From positions 1 through 51,067 of the forward strand of contig JAJDAH010000363.1 of NCBI GenBank assembly GCA_029261965.1: a DNA stretch of 51,067 nt, written 5' to 3'. This document shows, piece after piece, positions 3,149 through 18,813 of the stretch. The notes below the pieces were generated by a model. That model was given only the letters and a program-made list of their open reading frames with translations. It had not been told where the DNA came from and made no database searches. Source of the DNA: Polyangiaceae bacterium. GTDB taxonomy: Bacteria; Myxococcota_A; Polyangia; Polyangiales; Polyangiaceae. The stretch's first letter is position 1. Each line of letters begins with the position of its first letter. The translations under genes and the position numbers were made by a program.

Positions 3149-4239
3149 GCGGTGAGTCGAAGCCGAACGGACCCGCTAAAATCGTCGCCCTTCCCGGGGA
3201 TGGTGTGGGTCCGGAGATCACCGAGCAAGCGCTCGCGGTGCTCGATCTGTGCTGCGCCGCGGCCGGGCGCAAAATCGAAGTGGTCGAGATGCTCATCGGA
3301 GGAGCGGCGACCGACGCGGGCGAGCCGCCACTTCCCGACAAGACTCGGGACGCTTGCGTAGCAGCCGACGCCGTCCTTCTCGGAGCCGTCGGCGGACCGA
3401 AGTACGACTTGCTCGAGCCCGAGCTTCGCCCAGAGCGAGGGCTGCTCGCGCTCCGTAAAGCGCTCGGTGTCTACACGAACATCCGCCCGGTCAAGACGTT
3501 CGCGCCGCTCGCGGAGTACTCGCCGCTGAAAACCGAGCTGGCCCGCGGAACGGATCTCGTCGTGGTGCGCGAGCTTCTCGGAGGGATCTACTTCGGCATT
3601 CCGAAGGGCATCGACGACAAAGATGGAGTACGTCGGGCCTACAACACGATGGTGTACAGCGAGCCGGAGATCCAACGGGTCGCGCGGGTCGCCTTCGAAA
3701 TCGCCCGCGGCAGAAAAAAGCGGGTGATGAGCGTCGACAAAGCCAACGTGCTCGACGTCTCGCGGTTCTGGCGCGAGGTCGTCACGGATATCCACCAAAA
3801 GGAGTTCTCCGACGTCGCCCTCGATCATCAATACGTCGACTCGGCCGCGATGGATCTCATCCGCCAGCCGAGCAAGTTCGATGTCATCGTGACTGGCAAT
3901 CTCTTCGGGGACATCCTGACCGACGAAGCGGCGGTTCTCGCCGGATCTATCGGACTTCTACCCAGTGCGAGCTTGGGAGACGGCCCGGGGCTTTACGAGC
4001 CGATCCACGGATCGGCCCCGGATATCGCCGGCCAGGGCATCGCGAACCCGCTCGGCACCATCGCGTCGGTCGCCATGATGCTTCGGTCCTCGCTCGCAAT
4101 GCCCGCACAAGCCGACCGGCTCGAACGCGCCATCGAAAGCGTGCTCACCCAAGGCATCCGCACTAAAGATCTCGGAGGCAACGCCTCCACGAAGGAAATG
4201 GGAGCTGAGATATGTCGAGCGCTCGAACCGCAGGCGTGA
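3145..4239 (+). CDS. leuB: 3-isopropylmalate dehydrogenase
   Basis: Oxidises and decarboxylates 3-isopropylmalate with NAD, the third leucine-specific step. Family features in order: IVALPGDGVGPEI at the N-terminus, the substrate-binding arginine region RPVKTF, RELLGGIYFG, the tyrosine segment YNTMVYSEPEI, the catalytic lysine region DKANVLDVSRFW, and metal-binding NLFGDILTDEAA. The C-terminal YEPIHGSAPDIAGQGIANP is typical of decarboxylating dehydrogenases. At 364 residues it has the standard length. It starts GTG, overlapping the leuA stop by four bases, so translational coupling is likely. leuC and leuD, which act between LeuA and LeuB, are not in the window. Confidence 0.96.
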   Translation: MSGESKPNGPAKIVALPGDGVGPEITEQALAVLDLCCAAAGRKIEVVEMLIGGAATDAGEPPLPDKTRDACVAADAVLLGAVGGPKYDLLEPELRPERGLLALRKALGVYTNIRPVKTFAPLAEYSPLKTELARGTDLVVVRELLGGIYFGIPKGIDDKDGVRRAYNTMVYSEPEIQRVARVAFEIARGRKKRVMSVDKANVLDVSRFWREVVTDIHQKEFSDVALDHQYVDSAAMDLIRQPSKFDVIVTGNLFGDILTDEAAVLAGSIGLLPSASLGDGPGLYEPIHGSAPDIAGQGIANPLGTIASVAMMLRSSLAMPAQADRLERAIESVLTQGIRTKDLGGNASTKEMGAEICRALEPQA

Positions 4240-6092
4240 AAACCACGAAAAGTGGTGCCCCGCCGGCCAGCGAACCGCGACGTGCCGACGGCAACGGCGC
4301 GTCGTCTCGCCCTTCTGCGAGAAGTCGCGAACCGCAACCGGCGAAAGCCGTCGCCGGCCCGGTAGGCGAGGTCATGCGCGGCGCGCGCATCGTCTGCGAG
4401 AGCCTTCTCTGCGAAGGCGTCGACGCGCTCTTCGGTTATCCCGGCGGCGCGATCCTCCACGTCTACGACGAGCTGCACAAGCTCGACGGAAAGCTGAACC
4501 ACGTGCTCGTTCGCCACGAACAGGGCGCCATCCACGCCGCCGAGGGCTATGCGCGCTCGACGGGCAAGGTGGGAGTGTGTCTCGTCACGAGCGGACCTGG
4601 GGCCACCAACGTGGTCACGGGTCTCCAAGACGCGATGATGGACTCGATCCCACTCGTGGTGCTCACCGGCCAAGTGCCGACGACGATGATTGGCAACGAT
4701 GCGTTCCAGGAAGCCGACGTGGTCGGGATCACGCGGCCGTGCACGAAGTACAACTACCTGGTCAGGGACGTCAGCGAGCTCGCCTCGGTGATCAAGGAGG
4801 CTTTTTATCTGGCGCGGAGCGGCCGCCCCGGCCCCGTGCTCGTCGATCTGCCCAAGGACGTGACCGCGGCGGAGCACCCGTTTTCGTATCCGGAGAGCGT
4901 CGACCTTCCGAGCTACAAACCGACGGTCACTGGGCATCCGAAGCAAATCAAGAAGGCGATCAAGCTCATCGAGAGCTCGGAACGGACCGTGCTCTACATC
5001 GGCGGCGGCGTCGTCAATGCCAACGCCACCGATGAAATCATCGAGCTCGCCGAGAGGTTGAACCTGCCGGTGACTCCGACGCTCATGGGGCTCGGCGCGT
5101 TCCCCTCCGGACACGACCAGTCCCTCGGCATGCTCGGCATGCACGGGACCTACACGGCGAACATGGCGATGGCCGAAGCCGAGGTCATCGTCAACATCGG
5201 CGCACGCTTCGACGATCGAGTGACTGGGCGACTCGATTGCTTTGCGAAGAAGGCGAAGTTCATCCACGTCGACATCGACCCGACGAGCATCAACAAGAAT
5301 GTGATCGTCGACGTGCCGATCATCGGGGACGCCAAGACGGTCACTCGCCAACTTCTCGACGCGCTTCCCGACGCTCCCCCGCCGGAGCGTAAAGAGTGGT
5401 GGGGGATTCTCCGCGATTGGCAGAAGCGTTTCCCGCTGAGCTTCAAGGACCGGACCGACTGCATTGCTCCTCAGCGCATGATGAAAGAGATCGCCGAAAT
5501 TACGCGGGGCGAGGACATCTGCGCGACGGACGTCGGGCAGCACCAGATGTGGGCAGCGCAGTACTACCCGGTGAAACACGGCCGTTCATGGCTCACCTCC
5601 GGTGGCCTCGGAACGATGGGCTATGGGCTGCCCGCGGCGATGGGCGCTGCCGTCGGCAACCCGGACCGACGAGTGCTCTGCATCACGGGGGACGGGTCAT
5701 TTCAGATGTGTATTCAGGAGCTCGCGACGTGCGTGCACGAAGGACTCGACGTCAAAGTCTTGATCATGAACAACAACTTCCTCGGCATGGTTCGCCAGTG
5801 GCAAGAGTTGTTCTACTCTCGCCGCTACTCCGAAGTCGGGATGAAGTACTTCCCGGACTTCGTGAAGATCGCCGAGGCCTACGGAGCCACGGGGCTACGC
5901 GCCGAAAAACCCGAAGAGCTACACGAGATCCTCGAAAAGGGTCTCAACACGCCGGGCGTCGTGGTCATGGACATCATCGTGACCAAGGAAGCCAACGTCT
6001 ATCCGATGATTCCCGCGGGCGCCGCACACTACGAGCTGGTGCTCGAGCCCGAAGACGACGGCGAAGAACCCGAGCCGCGTGAGCTCGCCTGA
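4212..6092 (+). CDS. ilvB: Acetolactate synthase, large subunit
   Basis: Thiamine-diphosphate enzyme making 2-acetolactate or 2-aceto-2-hydroxybutyrate, the common first step for Val, Leu and Ile. The catalytic glutamate sits in RHEQGAIHAAEGYAR, the FAD/central domain follows, and the C-terminal ThDP-binding motif GDGSFQMCIQEL is followed by NNNFLGMVRQWQ. At 626 residues it exceeds the usual 560-590 because of an N-terminal, low-complexity Ala/Arg/Pro extension of about 55 residues before the conserved MRGARIVCESL. ATG 4212 has a GGGAG ribosome site but overlaps leuB by 28 bases. A start at 4374 (the MRGAR Met) is the alternative. It partners with IlvN encoded next door. Confidence 0.95.
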   Translation: MSSARTAGVKTTKSGAPPASEPRRADGNGASSRPSARSREPQPAKAVAGPVGEVMRGARIVCESLLCEGVDALFGYPGGAILHVYDELHKLDGKLNHVLVRHEQGAIHAAEGYARSTGKVGVCLVTSGPGATNVVTGLQDAMMDSIPLVVLTGQVPTTMIGNDAFQEADVVGITRPCTKYNYLVRDVSELASVIKEAFYLARSGRPGPVLVDLPKDVTAAEHPFSYPESVDLPSYKPTVTGHPKQIKKAIKLIESSERTVLYIGGGVVNANATDEIIELAERLNLPVTPTLMGLGAFPSGHDQSLGMLGMHGTYTANMAMAEAEVIVNIGARFDDRVTGRLDCFAKKAKFIHVDIDPTSINKNVIVDVPIIGDAKTVTRQLLDALPDAPPPERKEWWGILRDWQKRFPLSFKDRTDCIAPQRMMKEIAEITRGEDICATDVGQHQMWAAQYYPVKHGRSWLTSGGLGTMGYGLPAAMGAAVGNPDRRVLCITGDGSFQMCIQELATCVHEGLDVKVLIMNNNFLGMVRQWQELFYSRRYSEVGMKYFPDFVKIAEAYGATGLRAEKPEELHEILEKGLNTPGVVVMDIIVTKEANVYPMIPAGAAHYELVLEPEDDGEEPEPRELA

Positions 6093-6107
6093 GACCGAGG
6101 ACGAATC

Positions 6108-6638
6108 ATGAGCTCAAAAACCAGTCGTCACGTGCTGAGTATCCTGGTCGAAGACCGATTCGGTGAGCTGGCCCGCATCGTCGGGCTGTTTTCCGGACGC
6201 GGTTTCAACATCGACACCATCGCGGTCAACAAAACGCTCGACCCGCGTTTCTCGCGCGCCGTGCTCACCACTCGCGGCGACGATCAGATCATCGAGCAAA
6301 TCATCAAGCAGCTGCACAAGCTCGTCCGGGTGCGCAAAGTCCACCACATGACCGACGAGAAGCACATCGAACGAGAGCTGTGTCTCGTGACGGTGCGCGC
6401 CGCGGCGCCCAAAGCGCGCGAGGACCTCGAACGAATCATCAATCTGGTCGGCGCCCGGGTCATTGCCTATTCCCCAACGGCGTTCACGGTGGAGCTATCG
6501 GCCCCGTCGAAAGAGGTCGAGAATTTTCTCGAACTGCTCCGACCCCTCGGCATAAAAGACTTGTGCCGGTCGGCCACGATCGCCCTCGCCCGCCCCGGCG
6601 ACGACAAAACGAGCAACATCGGGGAAAACGCCGCCTGA
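6108..6638 (+). CDS. ilvN: Acetolactate synthase, regulatory small subunit
   Basis: Small subunit that activates IlvB and carries valine feedback sensitivity. The N-terminal ACT domain is clear: [19 protein letters not shown], then [14 protein letters not shown], and the second half of the fold through [20 protein letters not shown]. The C-terminal domain follows with [18 protein letters not shown]. At 176 residues it matches single-ACT bacterial IlvH/IlvN proteins. Start ATG 6108 lies 15 bases after ilvB with a GAGGACG ribosome site. Gene order ilvB-ilvN-ilvC is widely conserved. Confidence 0.95.
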
Positions 6639-6658
6639 TTCGCGGCCGGAACTCGAGC

Positions 6659-6681
6659 GGGGCGCATCCCTTTTGCGCCCC
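6659..6681 (+). other. Strong hairpin between ilvN and ilvC
   Basis: Perfect 8-bp inverted repeat GGGGCGCA / TGCGCCCC with a 7-base loop (TCCCTTT) in the 80-base ilvN-ilvC gap. No T run follows, so full termination is unlikely. It could be an mRNA processing or stability element letting ilvC be expressed at a different level, or a partial terminator. Confidence 0.5.
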
Positions 6682-6718
6682 TCGGCCATCCTGTAAACCC
6701 ACCTCTCGGAGGAATCAG

Positions 6719-7738
6719 ATGAAAGCGCTGTACGACAAAGACGCGGACCTATCGCTCATCCAAGGCAAAAAGGTCGCCATCATCGGCTACGGGAGCCAGG
6801 GCCATGCCCACGCTCTCAACCTACGTGACAGCGGCGTCGAGGTAGCCGTCGGGCTGCGCAAAGACAGCAAGAGCTGGGCGCGCGCCGAAGCCGAGGGCCT
6901 CAAAGTGACGAGTCCTGCTGAGGCGGCCAAGTGGGGCGACATCATCATGATGCTCGTCCCCGACGAGCTCGCTCCGGAAGTGTTCAAAGACGAGCTCGCC
7001 CCAGGCCTCGAAAAGGGTGACTACTTTGCCGTCGCGCACGGTTTCGGAATCCACTTCAAGAAGATCGCGGTGCCCGAGGGCGTCGGTGTCTTTCTCGTGG
7101 CCCCGAAGGCACCCGGACACACCGTGCGCCGCGAATACGTGAAAGGTCGCGGCGTGCCGATGCTGATCGCGGTCGAAGCCGATCCCGCCGGAAACACGAA
7201 AGCCCTCGCCCTCGCCTACGCCGCCGCAGCAGGAGGTGGCCGGGCCGGAATCCTGGAAACGAGCTTCCGCGAAGAAACCGAGACCGATCTCTTCGGCGAG
7301 CAGTCGGTGCTCTGCGGTGGACTGAGCGCACTCATCACCGCCGGGTTCGAAACGCTCGTCGAGGCCGGCTACTCACCGGAAATGGCCTACTTCGAGTGTT
7401 GCCACGAGCTCAAGCTCATCATCGACCTCATCTACGAAGGCGGCATCGGAAACATGCGCTACTCGGTGAGCAACACGGCCGAATACGGCGACCTCACCCG
7501 AGGCCCACGAATCGTCACCGGCGAGACCAAAGCCACGATGAAAAAGATCCTGTCCGAAATCCAATCGGGCAGCTTCGCCGACGAATGGATGGCCGAGCAC
7601 AAAGCCGGCAAACCCAAGTTCAAGAGTCTCGAAGCCGAGGGCAGCAAGCACCCGATCGAAGAAGTCGGTGAACGCCTCCGCGGAATGATGCCGTGGATGA
7701 AGGACGAGCAGACGGTCAAAGAGCGGTCAGCGTCGTAG
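6719..7738 (+). CDS. ilvC: Ketol-acid reductoisomerase (class I)
   Basis: Isomerises and reduces acetolactate or acetohydroxybutyrate with NAD(P)H and magnesium, the second common Val/Ile step. The Rossmann loop [19 protein letters not shown] begins near residue 21, followed by [14 protein letters not shown] and the acidic metal-binding segment [14 protein letters not shown]; the knotted C-terminal domain carries [19 protein letters not shown]. At 339 residues it is a short-form (class I) enzyme. The reading frame stays open a long way upstream through ilvN, but ATG 6719 is chosen because a strong CGGAGGA site lies six bases before it and the N-terminus [11 protein letters not shown] matches the family. 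Its stop is four bases from the convergent esterase stop. Confidence 0.96.
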
Positions 7739-11793: not shown

Positions 11794-13158
11794 GTGAAGA
11801 CCGTTCGAATTGCCGGGGCTTCTGGCTTCTGGGGCGACCGCAACGACGCGCTACTGGATCAGGTGACCGCCGGGCCAGTGGACATCGTGATGCTCGATTA
11901 TCTCGCCGAGGTGACGATGGCGATCCTGCGAAAGAAGATGCAGGACCGGCCGAGTTCGGGTTTTGCGACGGACTTCTTGAAAGCGCTCGATCCCGCACTG
12001 GAGTTGATCGTCGATCGCGGCATCCAGATCGTGACGAACGCGGGGGGCATGAATCCGCAAGCGTGTGCGGAGGCGGTTCTGGGAATCGCGGAGCGCAAGG
12101 GGATTCGAGGGCTCAAGGTAGGTTTGGTCACTGGGGACGATGTGTTCGGGAGCATCGACGGATTGCTCGAACGGGGGGTGGGGCTCGAGAACCTGGATAC
12201 GAAGGAACCGTTTTCCAAGATTCAGCCGCGGGTGCTCAGCGCCAACGCGTACTTGGGGTCAGATCCGATTGCCGATGCGCTGAAGCAGGGCGCACAGATC
12301 GTCGTCACTGGGCGATGCACCGACTCAGCGCTCGTGCTTGGTCCTTGCATCGAGAAGTTTGGTTGGAAGCCGGATGATTGGGATCGTCGGGCGGCGGGGG
12401 TCATCGCCGGGCACGTCATCGAATGCGGCGGGCAGGCGAGCGGAGGGAATTTTTCTGGAGGTTGGCAAGACGTTCCGAACCTCGAGAACCTGGGTTATCC
12501 GATCGTCGAGGTGGCCGAGAACGGCGAGTTCGAAGTGCAGAAGCACGAGTCACTGGGCGGGCGCATCACTCCAGCAGTGATTAAGGAGCAACTGATTTAC
12601 GAGATCGGGGATCCGAAATCGTATCTCACCCCGGACGTGACGGCGGACTTCACGAGCATCCAGCTGGAGGACCTGGGCAACAACCGGGTGCGGACCACCG
12701 GTATTCGCGGGCGACCACCGCCCGAACACCTCAAGGTATCGGTGACGTACGCCGACGGCTGGACGAATGTGGTCAGCATGACCTTCGTGTGGCCCCAGGC
12801 CCACGAGCGCGCCGAGCGAACCGTCGAGTTGGTTCTGGCGCGGTGCAAGAAGATGGGCATTCAAATCGACGACTATCATGCGGCCTTGATCGGAGCTTCG
12901 GGCGCCCACGGGCCGATGGCGCCCGCGCGCGATTCCGATGCCCCGGAAGTTCTGTTGCGGTTCGCGATGCGCGCCTCTGACCGCACGAGCGCCAAGCGAT
13001 TCTCTGCTGAGATGGCGCCGATGATGCTTGACGGTGTGCCCGGGGCCTGTCGAGGGCTGACTCCCGGTCGGAGCGAACCGACCCCGATGGTGAACCACTG
13101 GCCCACGCTGATCCCCCGAGATGCCGTCGAGCCGCAAGTAAGCGTGCTCGTTTCCTGA
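11794..13158 (+). CDS. AtuA-family protein, large domain (DUF1446)
   Basis: 454 residues matching the acyclic terpene utilisation AtuA / DUF1446 family. Recognisable segments are the opening VRIAGASGFWGDRNDALLDQ, VDIVMLDYLAEVTMAILRKK, IQIVTNAGGMNPQACAEAVL, VTGRCTDSALVLGPCIEKFGW and GHVIECGGQASGGNFSGGW. Its role in terpenoid (citronellol/geraniol) breakdown in Pseudomonas is genetically linked, but its chemistry is unsettled. In many homologues a ferredoxin-like domain is fused at the C-terminus; here that part is a separate gene two positions downstream (15137-15478). The GTG start follows a weak GGTAGGG site. No biotin carboxylase or other atu partners are in the window, so a terpene substrate should not be assumed. 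Confidence 0.86.
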   Translation: MKTVRIAGASGFWGDRNDALLDQVTAGPVDIVMLDYLAEVTMAILRKKMQDRPSSGFATDFLKALDPALELIVDRGIQIVTNAGGMNPQACAEAVLGIAERKGIRGLKVGLVTGDDVFGSIDGLLERGVGLENLDTKEPFSKIQPRVLSANAYLGSDPIADALKQGAQIVVTGRCTDSALVLGPCIEKFGWKPDDWDRRAAGVIAGHVIECGGQASGGNFSGGWQDVPNLENLGYPIVEVAENGEFEVQKHESLGGRITPAVIKEQLIYEIGDPKSYLTPDVTADFTSIQLEDLGNNRVRTTGIRGRPPPEHLKVSVTYADGWTNVVSMTFVWPQAHERAERTVELVLARCKKMGIQIDDYHAALIGASGAHGPMAPARDSDAPEVLLRFAMRASDRTSAKRFSAEMAPMMLDGVPGACRGLTPGRSEPTPMVNHWPTLIPRDAVEPQVSVLVS

Positions 13159-13166
13159 GGTAATGG

Positions 13167-15140
13167 ATGTCGATCGTAAAAATAGTGAAGATCGATCCCC
13201 TTGAGTTCATCCGCGACTCGAAAAGCATCGGTAGCCTGTGCGCAGACAAGCTCGCGCGGGCGCGCGCAATTCGAGAGGAAATCAAGGCATGCTCGAACGA
13301 AGATGCCCTCAGCTACGAGAAGGTGCTCGGGCGCTTCGACGACATGGTGTTCGAAGTCGGCCTGGCCAGCGGAATGACTGGCCTGATGGCGGTCGCCCAC
13401 GACGACGTCGGTGCTCGCAACACCGCCAAGGACTGCCAAAAGAAAATCGACGAATTCTACACGGACTTGATGCTCGACGCCGAGCTGGCACGGGTGATTT
13501 TTTCGTTCGATGACAGCAAACCGAAGCTCGATTCGACGAGGCAGCGATTGCTCCGTGATCTCGTTCGCGACTTTCGACGAAACGGTCTCGACCTTCCAGC
13601 CGACAAACAGACGCGACTTCGCGCGATCAACCAGCAGCTGACCAAGCTCGAGCTCGACTTCGAGACCAATCTTTCCGAAGCCACGCTAGCGATCGAAGTC
13701 GACGCATCGAAGCTCGGTGGTCTGCCCGAATCCTTTCTCGCATCGCACCCAGCGGGCGACGACGGCAAGGTGCGGATCACCACCGACTATCCCGACTATT
13801 TCCCCGTGGCAACCTACTGCGACGACCGTGACGTCGCGTTCGAGCTCGCCCGACTCTTCAACAATCGAGCCGCGGACGAGAATGTTCCGATTCTCGAAAG
13901 GGTGCTCGTGCTCCGACACGAAAAGGCTCGATTACTCGGGTACGAAACCTGGGCGGACTACGCGGTCGAGCCGCGGATGGCAAAAACACCCAGCGAGGTG
14001 AAAAAGTTCCTCACCGATGCCAGCCAGCGGGTGCGCGAGCCAGCCAAGCGGGAATACGCGGAGTTTGCCGAAGAGCATGCCCGACACGGCGGAGATCCGT
14101 CGAAGCGGCTGCCGCTTCAGGACCGCCTGTACCTGCAGCAACTGCTCGGTAAGCGGAAGTATGGCTTCGACTCGAAAGTGCTATCGGAATACTTCGAAGT
14201 AGAAAGTGTGCTCTCCGGGCTCTTGCAGATCGTGAGCACGCTGTACACGGTCGAGATCCGAACGAACACGACCGCTCCGAATTGGAACGATGACGTGCGA
14301 GTCATCGATCTATTCGAGCACGACAGCTTCGTTGGCCGTGTCTATCTCGACTTGTACCCGCGAGAGGGCAAGTTCAAGCACGCGGCCATGTTCAGCTTGC
14401 GTGCGGGCAAGCGCCTCCCGAATGGGGACTATGTCGAGCCGATCGCAGCGCTCGTGACAAACTTTCCGAAACCCGGGGACACGGCGGCGCTACTCACGCA
14501 CGAACAAGTCACGACGCTCTTCCACGAGTTCGGTCACACGTTGCACCACGTGCTCAGCAAGGAGGAGCTCACGAGCTACTCGGGCACGAGCACCGTGCGG
14601 GACTTCGTCGAAACACCGTCGCAGATGTTCGAAGAGTGGGCCTGGAAGCGTGAGACCCTCGACGTTTTTGCCAAGCATCACGAGACCGGGAAGACGATCC
14701 CCGATGATTTGTTTCGAGCGATGACGGCGGCACGTTCGTTCGGGCGAGCGCTCGGCACCGAGCGGCAGATCGCGCTGAGCCTTCTCGATTTCGAATACCA
14801 CTCGAAAACCCCGCCGATGGACACGGACGCGGTGCTCACCGAAATCATGGAAGCGGCCCAGAGCTTCGCTCCGCTACCGGATACGCACTTCCAGGCCACT
14901 TTCGGTCACTTGATGGGGTACGACGCCGCGTACTACGGCTACCAGTGGGCGTTGGCCATCGCGCGTGACGTGCTCACCCGATTCGAAGCCGAGGGGTACA
15001 TGAACCCAGAGACCGCAGCGAGCTGGCGACAAACGGTGTTGGCCCGGGGCGCTGGCGCCGACGAAAGCGCGCTCGTTCGGGAGTTCCTCGGTCGGGATTG
15101 GAATCTCGACGCTTACTCGGAGTTTCTCGCAGGCCAATGA
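13167..15140 (+). CDS. M3 family zinc oligopeptidase
   Basis: 657-residue metallopeptidase of the thimet oligopeptidase/Dcp type (M3A), predicted cytoplasmic since no signal peptide is seen. The zinc motif HEFGHTLHH is at about residue 453, with the third ligand expected in DFVETPSQMFEEWAW, 25-30 residues on as in the family. Other conserved parts are GRVYLDLYPREGKFKHAA and YDAAYYGYQWALAIARD. It probably trims short peptides. ATG 13167 lies eight bases after the AtuA stop, with GAGG in between. Its stop overlaps the next gene's start (ATGA). Placement between the two parts of an AtuA protein is odd. Confidence 0.92.
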   Translation: MSIVKIVKIDPLEFIRDSKSIGSLCADKLARARAIREEIKACSNEDALSYEKVLGRFDDMVFEVGLASGMTGLMAVAHDDVGARNTAKDCQKKIDEFYTDLMLDAELARVIFSFDDSKPKLDSTRQRLLRDLVRDFRRNGLDLPADKQTRLRAINQQLTKLELDFETNLSEATLAIEVDASKLGGLPESFLASHPAGDDGKVRITTDYPDYFPVATYCDDRDVAFELARLFNNRAADENVPILERVLVLRHEKARLLGYETWADYAVEPRMAKTPSEVKKFLTDASQRVREPAKREYAEFAEEHARHGGDPSKRLPLQDRLYLQQLLGKRKYGFDSKVLSEYFEVESVLSGLLQIVSTLYTVEIRTNTTAPNWNDDVRVIDLFEHDSFVGRVYLDLYPREGKFKHAAMFSLRAGKRLPNGDYVEPIAALVTNFPKPGDTAALLTHEQVTTLFHEFGHTLHHVLSKEELTSYSGTSTVRDFVETPSQMFEEWAWKRETLDVFAKHHETGKTIPDDLFRAMTAARSFGRALGTERQIALSLLDFEYHSKTPPMDTDAVLTEIMEAAQSFAPLPDTHFQATFGHLMGYDAAYYGYQWALAIARDVLTRFEAEGYMNPETAASWRQTVLARGAGADESALVREFLGRDWNLDAYSEFLAGQ

Positions 15141-15478
15141 AAACGAAGCTCTACAATTTGGCCCACAGCCGTGCCGGCGACAAAGGCGACGTCTGCAACA
15201 TCGGACTCATCGCGCGGAAACCAGAGTTCTACCCGTTGCTCGTGAAGGAAGTGACGGCGGAGCGCGTCAAGAATCTTTTCGGGGAGTGGTGTCGAGGCAA
15301 CGTCGAGAGATTCGAGCTTCCGAATCTCGAAGCCATGAACTTTCTGTTGCACGGCGCCCTCGGTGGCGGAGCGCTCGCCTCCCTCCGGCTCGATCCCCAA
15401 GGGAAAACCTACGGCTATGCCCTGCTCCGAATGGAGATCGACGTGCCCGACGACCTCGTATTCGAGCAGCTGGTCTAG
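15137..15478 (+). CDS. AtuA-type ferredoxin-like small domain protein
   Basis: 113 residues. The sequence LYNLAHSRAGDKGDVCNIGLI is the hallmark of the domain normally fused to the C-terminus of AtuA/DUF1446 proteins or encoded just after them; the end LHGALGGGALASLRLD also fits. It likely pairs with the 11794-13158 product as a split enzyme. ATG 15137 overlaps the peptidase stop by four bases (ATGA), implying translational coupling. Its stop abuts, with no gap, the stop of the convergent DyP gene. Confidence 0.82.
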   Translation: MKTKLYNLAHSRAGDKGDVCNIGLIARKPEFYPLLVKEVTAERVKNLFGEWCRGNVERFELPNLEAMNFLLHGALGGGALASLRLDPQGKTYGYALLRMEIDVPDDLVFEQLV

Positions 15479-17539
15479 TCAGAGCCCGAAGCCGCCGACA
15501 CGCTTGTACGCGAGCAGCCGTTCGATTTTGGGGAAGAGATCGCCACGGTAGAAGTCCTTGAGCGTGCGACGGGTGATCGCCGGTTCGTCTTTCCCGTCGA
15601 CGGTGGCCTTCGCGTCGCTGGCCAGGCAGAAAATGAGCTCGGTTTCCCTCTGGGAAAACCAATGCGGCAATCCGCCGGGATTGGGCCGACCTCGGTCGCC
15701 CCCAGCCGTCACGAACGCGTTCATCTCCGGACGGGTGATGACGTCCTCGTCGCTCGGCTCACCCGATGCTCCGGTGGCCGTGGAAAAGAGCTCGTCGAAC
15801 ACCTTTTCGTCGAGCATGCCGTCGTCGTCGAAAATGCCCGTGTCGAAAGCGTGTTTGCCCATCGCGATGTTCTCGACCTTGATTTGCATGAATTTGCCCT
15901 TGGTCTGGAAGAAGAGGGCGAAGTTGATGATCATCGAGAACAATGCGCTGTAGAACTGGCTGATACCGAGACGGCGATGACCGCGGTAGGTGTCGCCGAT
16001 GGAAATGATGCCGTCATTGTCGGTGTCAAAAAACGCCACGTGCTTCTGGAGCGGCGTCATGTCCCGCACCTTGGCGATGTATTCGATCGCCGCGAGACTC
16101 GGCATGAAGAAGTAGGCGCCGCCCTTGGTGGTGACAAAGCGCTGAAGCTCGGTGACCCGACGCCGAACCGGCTGTCCGGGGATCGTGAAATCCCCGCCCT
16201 TCGGGTCGAGCCGCGTCTGCTCCCCGATCAACGGATCCGGGTCGTTGTGCAGCTCGGCGAACTTCGGGCTGTTGCACCAGGTGTGCTGCACGAACTCGAA
16301 CTGACGAGCGATGCTCGCGTTGAAGCAGATGAAGTTGAGCCCCCGGGATGCGCCGTCGGAGCCCTTTTCGATGACCTCTTCCGAGCGGAACTTTTCATCC
16401 ACCGGCAGGCCATAGGGGCGCGCCCGCCGAACCATTCGGTGGCGTTTCGAGAGCTGGATCGCTCGGTCGACGTCCGGCGAGAGGATCGAGTCGCGGGGGT
16501 TCGATCGCCGAATGTGCGACCCGAACGGACACTTCTCGCCGTGCGGGTCCGCCGTCTTCGGATCGCTGATGTAGGAAAAACTGTCGTCGAGCTCCATACC
16601 GGGGGTGTCGTGGTCCGGCGCTTTGACCAGCGGCGCACCACTCGGCCATCGCCCGACCATTTTGGCGGCGACGTAGTCGCGATCCTTCGAGTCTCCCCCG
16701 ACCTTGTCGTGAAGCGCCTTCCAGAACCCGTAGACGTCCTGCTCGAGCTGTCGATAGACGAGGTACGTGCCGTTTTTGCCGAGGTCGAAACCCCCGCGGC
16801 CGTAAGTTTTCTCCGGCAGCGAGCGACTCTCGTCGATGCCTGCCGCGGGGCTCACCGGATAGTGGCCGTATTCGTTCTCGTACCCGAGAAGCAACTCTCC
16901 GGCCTTGATGGTGTTGCCGTGTGCGTCCTCACGCATCGCGCCGCGGCGGTGCGCCAGCTCGTGCGAAGGAACGGCATCCATCCGCGGTTGCGCGACGCCG
17001 TCACGAAAGCCGAAGTGCTCACGATAGCCGATTCCGTCGAAAAGCGTGTGCGTCTCGCGCTCGATCACCACCGAGAGCCCGCCGTCGGTCGCCAGCTTTC
17101 GATGACGCTGGACCAGGGCTTCGAGCTCCGTGGGCCCTTTGCCGTAGAGCATCAAAAGGATGTGCACTGGCTCGTTTTTCGGCCCACCCCACTCCCAGTT
17201 CTCCGGCGCGCTCTCGCGGCTGTCCCCGAGCATGAAGCTCCGGTGGGGCGCCGTCATGCCCTCCTCGAACTCGACCGAAAAACCAGCGCGCGTCTGCCGC
17301 GGGACCCCGAGCTCGACGAGGGCCGCGTAGGTGAACGCGATCTGAACGGCCTCGTCTTCTGGCCGGTGGTGACCGTTGGTGATTTCGGGACGAACGTCCG
17401 CTAGCCACTTTTTCGCGGCCAGTGGCTCATCGATTCGCAGCAAGATAAAGCGCGCGTCGTTGAGCTTGCCGTGGCCACTCAACAGCACGCCCTGGACTTG
17501 GGACGTGTCGATGACTACGGGCTCGTCGCTCTTCTTCAT
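15479..17539 (-). CDS. DyP-type heme peroxidase fused to a caleosin (peroxygenase) domain
   Basis: 686 residues with two heme-enzyme modules. Residues 1-485 are a dye-decolorizing peroxidase: the distal-pocket signature GFRDG (177-181), the proximal histidine in CPFGSHIRRSNPRD (His 342) and the terminal TKGGAYFFMPSL. From about 495 the chain changes to a caleosin: TPLQKHVAFFDTDNDG with His 500 and an EF-hand calcium loop (505-516), a hydrophobic hairpin segment (526-546) and GKHAFDTGIFDDDG with His 563. Its C-terminal half extends to about 678. The two histidines match those reported as essential for heme in plant peroxygenases. ATG 17539 has a GAGGA site; an in-frame ATG at 17569 would overlap the upstream gene. 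No export signal was seen. Confidence 0.88.
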   Translation of the reverse strand: MKKSDEPVVIDTSQVQGVLLSGHGKLNDARFILLRIDEPLAAKKWLADVRPEITNGHHRPEDEAVQIAFTYAALVELGVPRQTRAGFSVEFEEGMTAPHRSFMLGDSRESAPENWEWGGPKNEPVHILLMLYGKGPTELEALVQRHRKLATDGGLSVVIERETHTLFDGIGYREHFGFRDGVAQPRMDAVPSHELAHRRGAMREDAHGNTIKAGELLLGYENEYGHYPVSPAAGIDESRSLPEKTYGRGGFDLGKNGTYLVYRQLEQDVYGFWKALHDKVGGDSKDRDYVAAKMVGRWPSGAPLVKAPDHDTPGMELDDSFSYISDPKTADPHGEKCPFGSHIRRSNPRDSILSPDVDRAIQLSKRHRMVRRARPYGLPVDEKFRSEEVIEKGSDGASRGLNFICFNASIARQFEFVQHTWCNSPKFAELHNDPDPLIGEQTRLDPKGGDFTIPGQPVRRRVTELQRFVTTKGGAYFFMPSLAAIEYIAKVRDMTPLQKHVAFFDTDNDGIISIGDTYRGHRRLGISQFYSALFSMIINFALFFQTKGKFMQIKVENIAMGKHAFDTGIFDDDGMLDEKVFDELFSTATGASGEPSDEDVITRPEMNAFVTAGGDRGRPNPGGLPHWFSQRETELIFCLASDAKATVDGKDEPAITRRTLKDFYRGDLFPKIERLLAYKRVGGFGL

Positions 17540-17550
17540 GCTGTCCTCGG

Positions 17551-18813
17551 TCAGAGAAGACGTTGCCATTTTTCGACGAGATCGGCGTCGAGCTCGTAGA
17601 CACCACGGCGGATGAGCGCGTTCGCGATGACGTTCTGCACCGTGAGATCGGGGTACGCGGCGTACCAGACGTCCGTCCGGATCTGCTGGTCACGAGCCCA
17701 GCGCTTGAATGCTTGCTCGTTCGACGCGCCATCTCGCGTCAGAAAGCGCGTCGGCGGAAAATCCTCGGTGTTGCTCCAAACCGCGGTGAGCCCTGCCGAC
17801 TGCTGGTCGACGAAGTCTCCAAGGTAACTCTCCCAGCTCCCGTCGTAGTTGCTCATGAAGAGCAGTCGTTTGGAGTCGTCGACGGGAACCCACCGGGCAA
17901 AGTGAATCGACGGAATGCCTCCGAGATCCCCCTTGTAGAAAACGAAGTTCGCAGCATCGTCGATGATCTTGAAAACACCGCCGAGAATGACCTGACGAAA
18001 CTTGCCGGGCCTCATGATGCTGAGGTCGGTCAGCGGATTCGCAACGAGGTGAGTTTCTTCTCTGGCGAAGAGGCGCCGACGACCGAGCTCGAGACGGCGG
18101 CGGCGCCAATCGTTCTCGTAGGTCTCTTTTTTTTCGTACTTGCGTTTGTCGCCCCACTCGAGAAAGCGCAGGTACCCGAGACCGAACACGACGAAGGCGC
18201 CAATGAGGCCCCACTTTCGAACGTTCGCCTTCTTCTCCTGTTGGTAGTGCTCTTCGAGCCACTCGGGGCGAGGCGTGGGTGGCGGCTCGTCGACGGCCCA
18301 CTTCAGATCGCCGCGGCTCGCAACGAACTTCCGAACCTCCGCGTGGACGTCGCGGCCTTCCCAGGGCCCGTCTTCGTCGAGGTGCTGCTCGATGGCCGCC
18401 CGGAGATCGCGCTCGCGAAGGATCTCCTGGACCGAATAGAAACGCTTGGCGATATGAAAAGCCCCGTAGGGTTTTGCATTCTTCTCTACGAACCGCTCGA
18501 ACGCCTTCGCGTCCGCCGTGCCCCGACTCGGATAGTCTTCGCAGAACGCCAGCACCGCATCGAGAGCCGCACCGCCTTCTTCACGAAGCTCGGTCAGGTG
18601 CTCGTCACGTGGCAAGTCGAAGTTCGTCGAGAGCACGAGAGAGTCGCGCTCTATTCCCACGTCGGAATCGCCTTGCAAGACGACGAAACGCGCGTAGTGC
18701 ACCGTCGACATCGCACTAAACGGCACAGCCCTCAGTAGCTTCTTTAGCTCGGAGAAACTGTAGCCGTGCTTCAAGCGAGCAACGACCGCGAGGGCGCCTT
18801 GCGTTTCTGCCAT
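17551..18813 (-). CDS. Membrane-anchored protein with two ferredoxin-like halves, DyP partner
   Basis: 420 residues, not matched to a named family. One transmembrane helix lies at about 201-219 (WGLIGAFVVFGLGYLRFLEW) with strongly charged flanks. The parts on either side share a pattern: VHYARFVVLQ ... LVLSTNFDLPRDEHLTEL (38-76) and IHFARWVPVDD ... LLFMSNYDGSWESYL (303-331). That pattern resembles the alpha/beta ferredoxin-like repeats of the DyP/chlorite dismutase/EfeB superfamily, but no heme-ligand signature was found. It ends 11 bases before the DyP-caleosin start on the same strand, so the two are almost surely cotranscribed. It may be a membrane partner or scaffold. Start 18813 is the first Met giving a folded N-terminus; an upstream open frame continues into the divergent gap. 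Confidence 0.68.
   Translation of the reverse strand: MAETQGALAVVARLKHGYSFSELKKLLRAVPFSAMSTVHYARFVVLQGDSDVGIERDSLVLSTNFDLPRDEHLTELREEGGAALDAVLAFCEDYPSRGTADAKAFERFVEKNAKPYGAFHIAKRFYSVQEILRERDLRAAIEQHLDEDGPWEGRDVHAEVRKFVASRGDLKWAVDEPPPTPRPEWLEEHYQQEKKANVRKWGLIGAFVVFGLGYLRFLEWGDKRKYEKKETYENDWRRRRLELGRRRLFAREETHLVANPLTDLSIMRPGKFRQVILGGVFKIIDDAANFVFYKGDLGGIPSIHFARWVPVDDSKRLLFMSNYDGSWESYLGDFVDQQSAGLTAVWSNTEDFPPTRFLTRDGASNEQAFKRWARDQQIRTDVWYAAYPDLTVQNVIANALIRRGVYELDADLVEKWQRLL

Follow-up and report, generated by a model that had tools for sequence, protein, structure and literature searches.

What would a bacterial protein that joins a dye-decolorizing peroxidase (DyP) to a caleosin do, and is such a protein real? 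The question is posed by a 51,067-nucleotide contig of a Polyangiaceae bacterium (JAJDAH010000363.1 of assembly GCA_029261965.1), the whole of which we call the window. An initial annotation, made from the sequence alone, had placed both domains in one chain at positions 15479-17539. The coordinates turned out to be correct, and the gene (P0001; 15479..17539, minus strand) is a single open frame of 686 aa with no internal stops. It encodes a complete DyP peroxidase (aa ~10-489) followed almost at once by a complete caleosin (aa 493-686), both of which retain their catalytic residues, and the proposed arrangement is borne out by the profiles and motifs of both families. A chance origin of these predicted domain matches is ruled out by the profile E-values.

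The DyP domain (16073..17512, minus strand) is matched by TIGR01413 with an E-value of 2.3e-28 (99.5 bits, about 1 bit below the cut-off of 100.5), by PF20628 with 21.9 bits, which passes the cut-off of 20, and by PF21105 with 18.6 bits, which is under the cut-off of 27.5. The nearest solved structures, 8re3 and 8re2, both named Deinococcus radiodurans DyP, also align to P0001 (8re3_A over aa 14-491, E 1.8e-46). The likeness lies in the near full-length alignment and the catalytic residues, whereas P0001 differs from both in having an additional C-terminal domain and a partner protein, F2, described below. Aligned with other DyP domains (51 in all), the P0001 domain keeps Asp180 in GFRDG (17000..17002, minus strand), His342 in GSHIRRSNPRD (16514..16516, minus strand; kept in 50 of the 51) and Arg371/372 in HRMVRRARPYG, which we take to be the distal Asp, the proximal heme His and the distal Arg, respectively. 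Residue numbers in P0001 were counted by hand, except for the EF loop and His500 of the caleosin, which were printed in the output. The two DyP motifs singled out in the annotation, GFRDG and the His of HIRRSNPRD, are thereby confirmed. In the same alignment, the proximal His is a gap in locus L089, where the region is absent; L092, L108, L109 and L132 carry changes in GxxDG. At L089 itself (5739-7541; genome G164), shortened F2 and DyP genes adjoin a catalase-like gene.

The caleosin domain (15482..16063, minus strand) is matched by PF05042 at 89.1 bits (cut-off 27; E 4.1e-25, aa 493-645, profile positions 2-150 of 170), so the C-terminal ~190 residues do belong to this family. According to excerpts of PMC6309107 and PMC5808235, caleosins are heme peroxygenases that require conserved His residues, whose heme-ligand roles come from plant and fungal proteins; the first of these excerpts also describes heme-dependent lipid peroxygenase activity in plant and fungal caleosins. 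Both residues, His500 in LQKH (16040..16042, minus strand) and His563 in KHAFDTG (15851..15853, minus strand), are present in P0001 and in 23/23 bacterial caleosins compared, a set that did not include the G446 caleosin (L036). The EF-hand loop (aa 505-516; 15992..16027, minus strand), DTDNDGIISIGD, has residues at the canonical positions, with Asp replacing Glu at position 12, and is a predicted calcium site. Downstream of it lies a hydrophobic segment with a mean Kyte-Doolittle value of 1.57 over 19 aa. All four caleosin features listed in the annotation (the LQKH His, the EF hand, the hydrophobic segment and the His in KHAFDTG) were therefore found, and the EF hand, hydrophobic segment and two invariant His are what P0001 shares with the caleosin/peroxygenases of plants, algae and fungi. 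Unlike them it is bacterial and fused to a DyP, and a proline-rich knot is not evident by eye in the caleosin alignments. A canonical EF loop occurs in nine of the 23 bacterial caleosins.

The predicted structure of the fusion supports the two halves unequally. The caleosin is mostly modeled with confidence (10-aa blocks at pLDDT 78-96, falling to 64-70 at aa 611-630), but the DyP half is poor, much of it under pLDDT 50. The two best DyP matches of the model in Foldseek have TM-scores of 0.14-0.22 and were set aside as evidence of fold.

The annotation had described caleosins as known mainly from plants, algae and fungi, a view that needs widening. PF05042 matches are present in 17 of the 183 genomes of the order, the window's own included, and caleosins also occur in 11 named loci, five of which coincide with contigs of the 17-genome set. 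The caleosin-bearing named contigs include Labilithrix, Anaeromyxobacter, Elusimicrobia, and gammaproteobacterial and Kofleriaceae MAGs. Caleosin domains are also mentioned for some Legionella in an excerpt of PMC7542358. Since caleosins are found in several bacterial groups, a bacterial caleosin by itself is not new. In two Elusimicrobia MAG loci (L042, 4870-5802; L044, 9560-10525), the caleosin has a long N-terminal extension with what looks by eye like a signal-peptide start.

What does appear unusual is the fusion. No other DyP-caleosin fusion was found among the 17 PF05042-positive genomes of the order or in the 11 named caleosin loci. The same was true of the two genomes, one of them the window's own, that matched profile A1 in a draw of 377 genomes from the phylum; this draw overlaps the order, omits most of its caleosin genomes, and was searched with at most eight first-look candidates scored per genome. 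In its own genome, P0001 is the sole PF05042 match at E <= 0.001, and the whole protein used as a query matches only itself at that threshold. The survey of architectures suggested in the annotation thus returned the fusion in the window and no second example among the genomes searched, and at the level of sequence it is well supported that the architecture is real and unusual, known from one genome. The annotation named no described example, and in line with this, no DyP-caleosin, DyP-P450 or DyP-catalase-like fusion is named in titles or abstract openings among the matches listed from the open-licence PMC literature. The wider F2-DyP pattern described below is likewise absent from those matches. 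The only match for the whole words 'DyP' and 'caleosin' together there was PMC5117620, a Neurospora heat-shock study in the part available.

Immediately upstream of the fusion gene, 11 nt away and on the same strand, is F2 (17551..18813, minus strand; 420 aa, start codon chosen by the gene finder). It appears to comprise an N-terminal ferredoxin-like domain, a hydrophobic stretch recognized by eye and a conserved C-terminal domain. F2 had no match in Pfam, NCBIfam or PADLOC, and comparison with PDB sequences gave chance-level matches only (E 0.58 and 1.4). The structural model is poor overall (pLDDT 48.8), although its first ~120 aa appear to resemble ferredoxin-like/antibiotic-monooxygenase folds (best Foldseek E 5.6e-3). 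Comparison with 9lmn_A gave a VIA Z of 9.4 over 137 aa at 5.0 Å rmsd, with other structures at Z <=8.5. Together, these model comparisons hint at a ferredoxin-like fold.

F2 was detected in 34/183 genomes of the order, with at most nine candidates scored per genome, and in 24/377 of the overlapping phylum draw, with at most four. We analyzed 52 F2 loci (54 rows minus the duplicates L090 and L091), of which eight entered through caleosin, one is the window itself and 43 entered through F2; nine F2 places were left out (G133:C263, G135:C853, G116:C23, G147:C186, G148:C1, G149:C37, G060:C755, G060:C1039 and G362:C1). The pairing with DyP is constant: in 52/52 loci a DyP lies beside F2 on the same strand, with a gap of at most 385 nt in all but one case (L144, 1049 nt).

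Is the caleosin also linked to this F2-DyP core? F2 is present in 14 of the 17 caleosin genomes and in 20 of the 166 others; the Fisher p of 2e-9 treats genomes as independent, and kinship makes this value too small. Among the 14 genomes carrying both, caleosin and F2-DyP share one locus in nine, lie on different contigs in four (G089, G090, G120 and G143) and are more than 9 Mb apart in G164. A separate caleosin gene is found 33-4025 nt from F2-DyP in eight loci (L019, L020, L022-L025, L027 and L030), all eight of which also contain a kinase-AAA gene (two separate frames in L025). In G120 and G143 (L021 and L029), the caleosin adjoins a kinase-AAA gene, and DyP is absent from the stretch examined. 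As separate DyP and caleosin genes lie within ~4 kb of each other in eight related loci, the fusion joins a pre-existing partnership.

The caleosin is one of several enzymes that accompany F2-DyP. A third heme enzyme is fused to or near the pair in 35/52 loci, as judged by profiles that we built ourselves from part of these same loci: caleosin in nine (one fused, in the window), a catalase-like protein in eight (five fused) and a P450 in 18 (nine fused). The other 17 loci, some of which lie on short contigs, have none of these enzymes nearby. The catalase-like protein is in frame with F2-DyP in L085, L105, L106 and L128, in frame with F2 in L127 and encoded nearby in L087-L089. The best solved relatives of this family are 3e4w, an uncharacterized protein (8e-18), and coral allene oxide synthase 1u5u (1.2e-5), with the best true catalase narrowly behind the latter (8e-5). 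The catalase family PF00199 passes its cut-off in L127, fails it in L085 and has no match in L087, L089 and L105.

P450s are fused in L107, L111, L112, L113, L136, L140, L142, L145 and L146 and lie nearby in L080, L081, L110, L132, L134, L137, L138 (weak), L139 and L141. Some of these nine nearby P450s may be chance neighbors; the fusions are independent of this. Pfam supports the P450 assignment in nine loci (L080, L110, L112, L081, L132, L134, L137, L139 and L141) in a scan that did not include L138, L145 and L146. In the fused regions of L107, L111, L113, L136, L140 and L142, there was no Pfam P450 match, and these regions were recognized solely by the self-built profile. Searching with a profile of four other P450s detected L107, L111 and L113 at 8.5e-24, 1.1e-12 and 1.1e-11, respectively. 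By our own reading of the alignment, the acid-alcohol pair is kept in just two of ten aligned P450s.

How the partners are distributed can be seen on a tree of 50 DyP domains, from which L089, L141 and the duplicates were omitted. The four labels (caleosin, catalase-like, P450 and none) need 15 changes on this tree against a mean of 26.0 for shuffled labels, so that the partner labels also cluster. At the same time, its starred branches force at least three changes for caleosin, four for P450 and three for the catalase-like protein, which means that partners were gained, lost or exchanged repeatedly. Gene loss, or genes that escaped detection, may account for some of the changes.

The surroundings of several loci point to lipids. 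In L087, an animal-peroxidase neighbor matches 4kvj, 'fatty acid alpha-oxidase' (4.5e-111), and 4hhr, 'alpha-dioxygenase' (1.1e-106), and homologs of this alpha-dioxygenase-like protein are present in L086 and L088. Patatin genes adjoin and precede F2 in L112 and L146. In L107 (2751-7406, minus strand), a single 1552-aa chain comprises patatin, F2 (a partial match), DyP and a P450-like region, and perhaps represents a whole lipid-oxidation pathway in one polypeptide. A short-chain dehydrogenase is encoded within 40 nt of DyP in L025, L027, L092, L108 and L109 (checked with Pfam in L025). The remaining neighbors scanned were either non-lipid (DUF4331, eCIS core, radical SAM, sulfatase, histidine kinase) or unmatched.

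Other neighbors are signaling proteins. A cyclase-AAA-TPR gene adjoins the P450-type loci L136 and L140, and the F2-DyP module is therefore able to stand next to such proteins. In both loci, an adenylate/guanylate cyclase-AAA_16-TPR gene (L136, 10000-13095; L140, 9180-12197) is found beside F2-DyP-P450; caleosin-type loci have a Ser/Thr kinase-AAA_16. The L020 kinase matches PADLOC over its kinase part only (best mad6 and PD-T4-6), and the L136 cyclase protein matches it over the cyclase part (PycC). A defense system was considered and set aside for P0001 and F2, neither of which had a PADLOC match. In L132, a gene with an eCIS core domain (4195-5850) lies immediately upstream of F2-DyP.

Which function would fit these observations? 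DyPs have mostly been studied as dye or lignin peroxidases, and their natural substrate is unclear. Caleosins, catalase-like proteins and P450s are heme folds known for conversions of fatty-acid hydroperoxides; on this basis we place the F2-DyP pair either at the start of a lipid hydroperoxide pathway or within one. Because F2-DyP is tied by its surroundings to fatty-acid hydroperoxide enzymes, its DyP more likely belongs to the same lipid pathway. What the sequences themselves show is the architecture, conservation of the catalytic residues, an F2-DyP pairing that holds throughout, a third enzyme that varies and, in some loci, neighbors of the alpha-dioxygenase and patatin types. On balance, and with moderate confidence, we favor P0001 as a two-heme lipid-oxidizing enzyme that works with F2, its caleosin being the hydroperoxide-using end of an F2-DyP oxylipin-type module. 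F2, probably membrane-associated, and DyP would form a core acting on a fatty acid or other lipid at the hydroperoxide level. The caleosin domain would take a lipid hydroperoxide as oxygen donor and hydroxylate or epoxidize an unsaturated fatty acid, like the plant and fungal caleosins, while fusion would confine the reactive peroxide to the space between the hemes. In the relatives, a catalase-like protein or P450 joined to the same core would lead to other products of a like intermediate. All of this chemistry, together with heme binding, membrane association and channelling, we infer. If the module is real, DyP is the center of a myxobacterial lipid-oxidation pathway whose ends can be exchanged, which would offer a natural substrate class for such DyPs and would suggest what bacterial caleosins and F2 do.

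The DyP itself may form, reduce or activate the hydroperoxide. The absence of a recognized dioxygenase in L107 favors formation, whereas the alpha-dioxygenase in L087 and L088 favors a later step. Neither a fatty-acid dioxygenase nor a lipoxygenase domain was recognized in P0001, in which Pfam matched the DyP and caleosin families only; the hydroperoxide-converting heme domain is by profile the caleosin, its activity being predicted. No lipoxygenase match was found in the window's own genome, with the search control equally silent. More speculatively, F2-DyP could be a lipoxygenase-independent fatty-acid oxygenase, in which F2 presents membrane lipid and DyP makes the hydroperoxide and passes it to an exchangeable caleosin, catalase-like protein or P450. 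We regard this extension as tentative and rather unlikely; if true, it would represent a new enzyme class heading bacterial oxylipin synthesis, and the 1552-aa patatin-F2-DyP-P450 chain of L107 would take membrane lipid all the way to oxylipin within a single polypeptide.

Oxylipins in plants, fungi and corals are made by fused or coupled heme enzymes; to our knowledge, few bacterial routes have been described. Multi-heme oxylipin enzymes pair a hydroperoxide former with a converter, as excerpts describe for fungal DOX-P450 (PMC13049297) and for catalase-like/lipoxygenase proteins, including cyanobacterial catalase-LOX fusions (PMC11719350). The coral and cyanobacterial fusions resemble the loci studied here in that a hydroperoxide-converting heme enzyme is fused to a partner, and the catalase-like family of the window's relatives is akin to coral allene oxide synthase 1u5u/3dy5. 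They differ in that here there is no lipoxygenase domain, the partner is F2-DyP, and the hydroperoxide-using domain in the window is a caleosin. In fungal linoleate diol synthase, DOX-AOS and DOX-EAS, according to the part of PMC13049297 available, the second heme domain is a P450 that isomerizes the hydroperoxide of the first; an excerpt of PMC5919972 describes oomycete CYP5619, a P450 fused to a peroxidase/dioxygenase. Two heme domains per chain are common to these proteins and ours, and the window's relatives include DyP-P450 fusions, but the position held in the fungal proteins by a cyclooxygenase-type heme dioxygenase is taken here by a DyP together with F2. The fusion and the enzyme pairings of its relatives thus hint at an undescribed bacterial route to oxidized fats.

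Could P0001 instead be a detoxification enzyme made of two independent antioxidant modules, with DyP removing H2O2 and the caleosin removing lipid hydroperoxides? The canonical DyP peroxidase residues and the lipid peroxygenase activity of plant and fungal caleosins (PMC6309107, in the excerpt available) would agree with this. Yet it leaves unexplained the constant F2 partner, the P450 and catalase-like domains in the place of the caleosin, and the alpha-dioxygenase and patatin neighbors, and we consider it unlikely. For the related proposal of the annotation, that one module reduces H2O2 and the other separately oxygenates lipids, the surroundings likewise suggest that it is not the best fit.

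It is still less probable that the caleosin serves mainly as a membrane or lipid-droplet anchor for DyP and has no working peroxygenase. The hydrophobic segment is there, and the EF loop is degenerate in all eight separate caleosins near F2-DyP (canonical in 0/8), yet canonical in the fusion; both heme-ligand His, moreover, are kept in all of the bacterial caleosins compared, and what replaces the caleosin elsewhere, a catalase-like protein or a P450, looks like an enzyme rather than an anchor.

The last alternative, raised in the annotation as a sequencing error that had joined two genes, concerns the gene itself. At the junction (16058..16072, minus strand), DyP homology ends at about aa 489 and is followed by KVRD and an internal ATG (aa 494, ATGA), which matches the start of stand-alone caleosins (MTPLQ). 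The junction sequence is CGGGACATGACG, and in the +1 frame TGA falls precisely there, so that with one G less in the run there would be two coupled genes. In L022-L024 the gene order is F2, DyP, a large kinase-AAA gene (F1) and caleosin, with a 4-nt overlap of the caleosin start and the kinase stop. That P0001 is really two genes, a DyP and a caleosin translationally coupled through an ATGA overlap, with an extra assembly base or a real one-base indel joining the frames, is quite improbable: although the +1-frame TGA sits at the exact spot, the separate caleosins of L021-L024 start with ATGA or GTGA overlapping the upstream kinase gene, and the order, the phylum draw and the named loci yielded no other genome with the fusion, the assembled frame is uninterrupted, homology to DyP continues in that frame to ~aa 489 with the caleosin immediately after, third-position GC is continuous through the junction, errors are not known to be common in runs of three G, and the ATGA motif is weak evidence because every Met-Thr start gives ATGA.

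For a genuine fusion, a simple history would be that the kinase was lost from between the two genes and DyP was then fused to the caleosin start. The best F1 match in the window's own genome is on a separate contig (C111) and is 47% identical. In the window, an M3 peptidase gene lies between the genes for AtuA (11794-13158) and an AtuA-ferredoxin-like protein (15137-15478), which are acyclic terpene utilization families. These two genes run toward the fusion gene.
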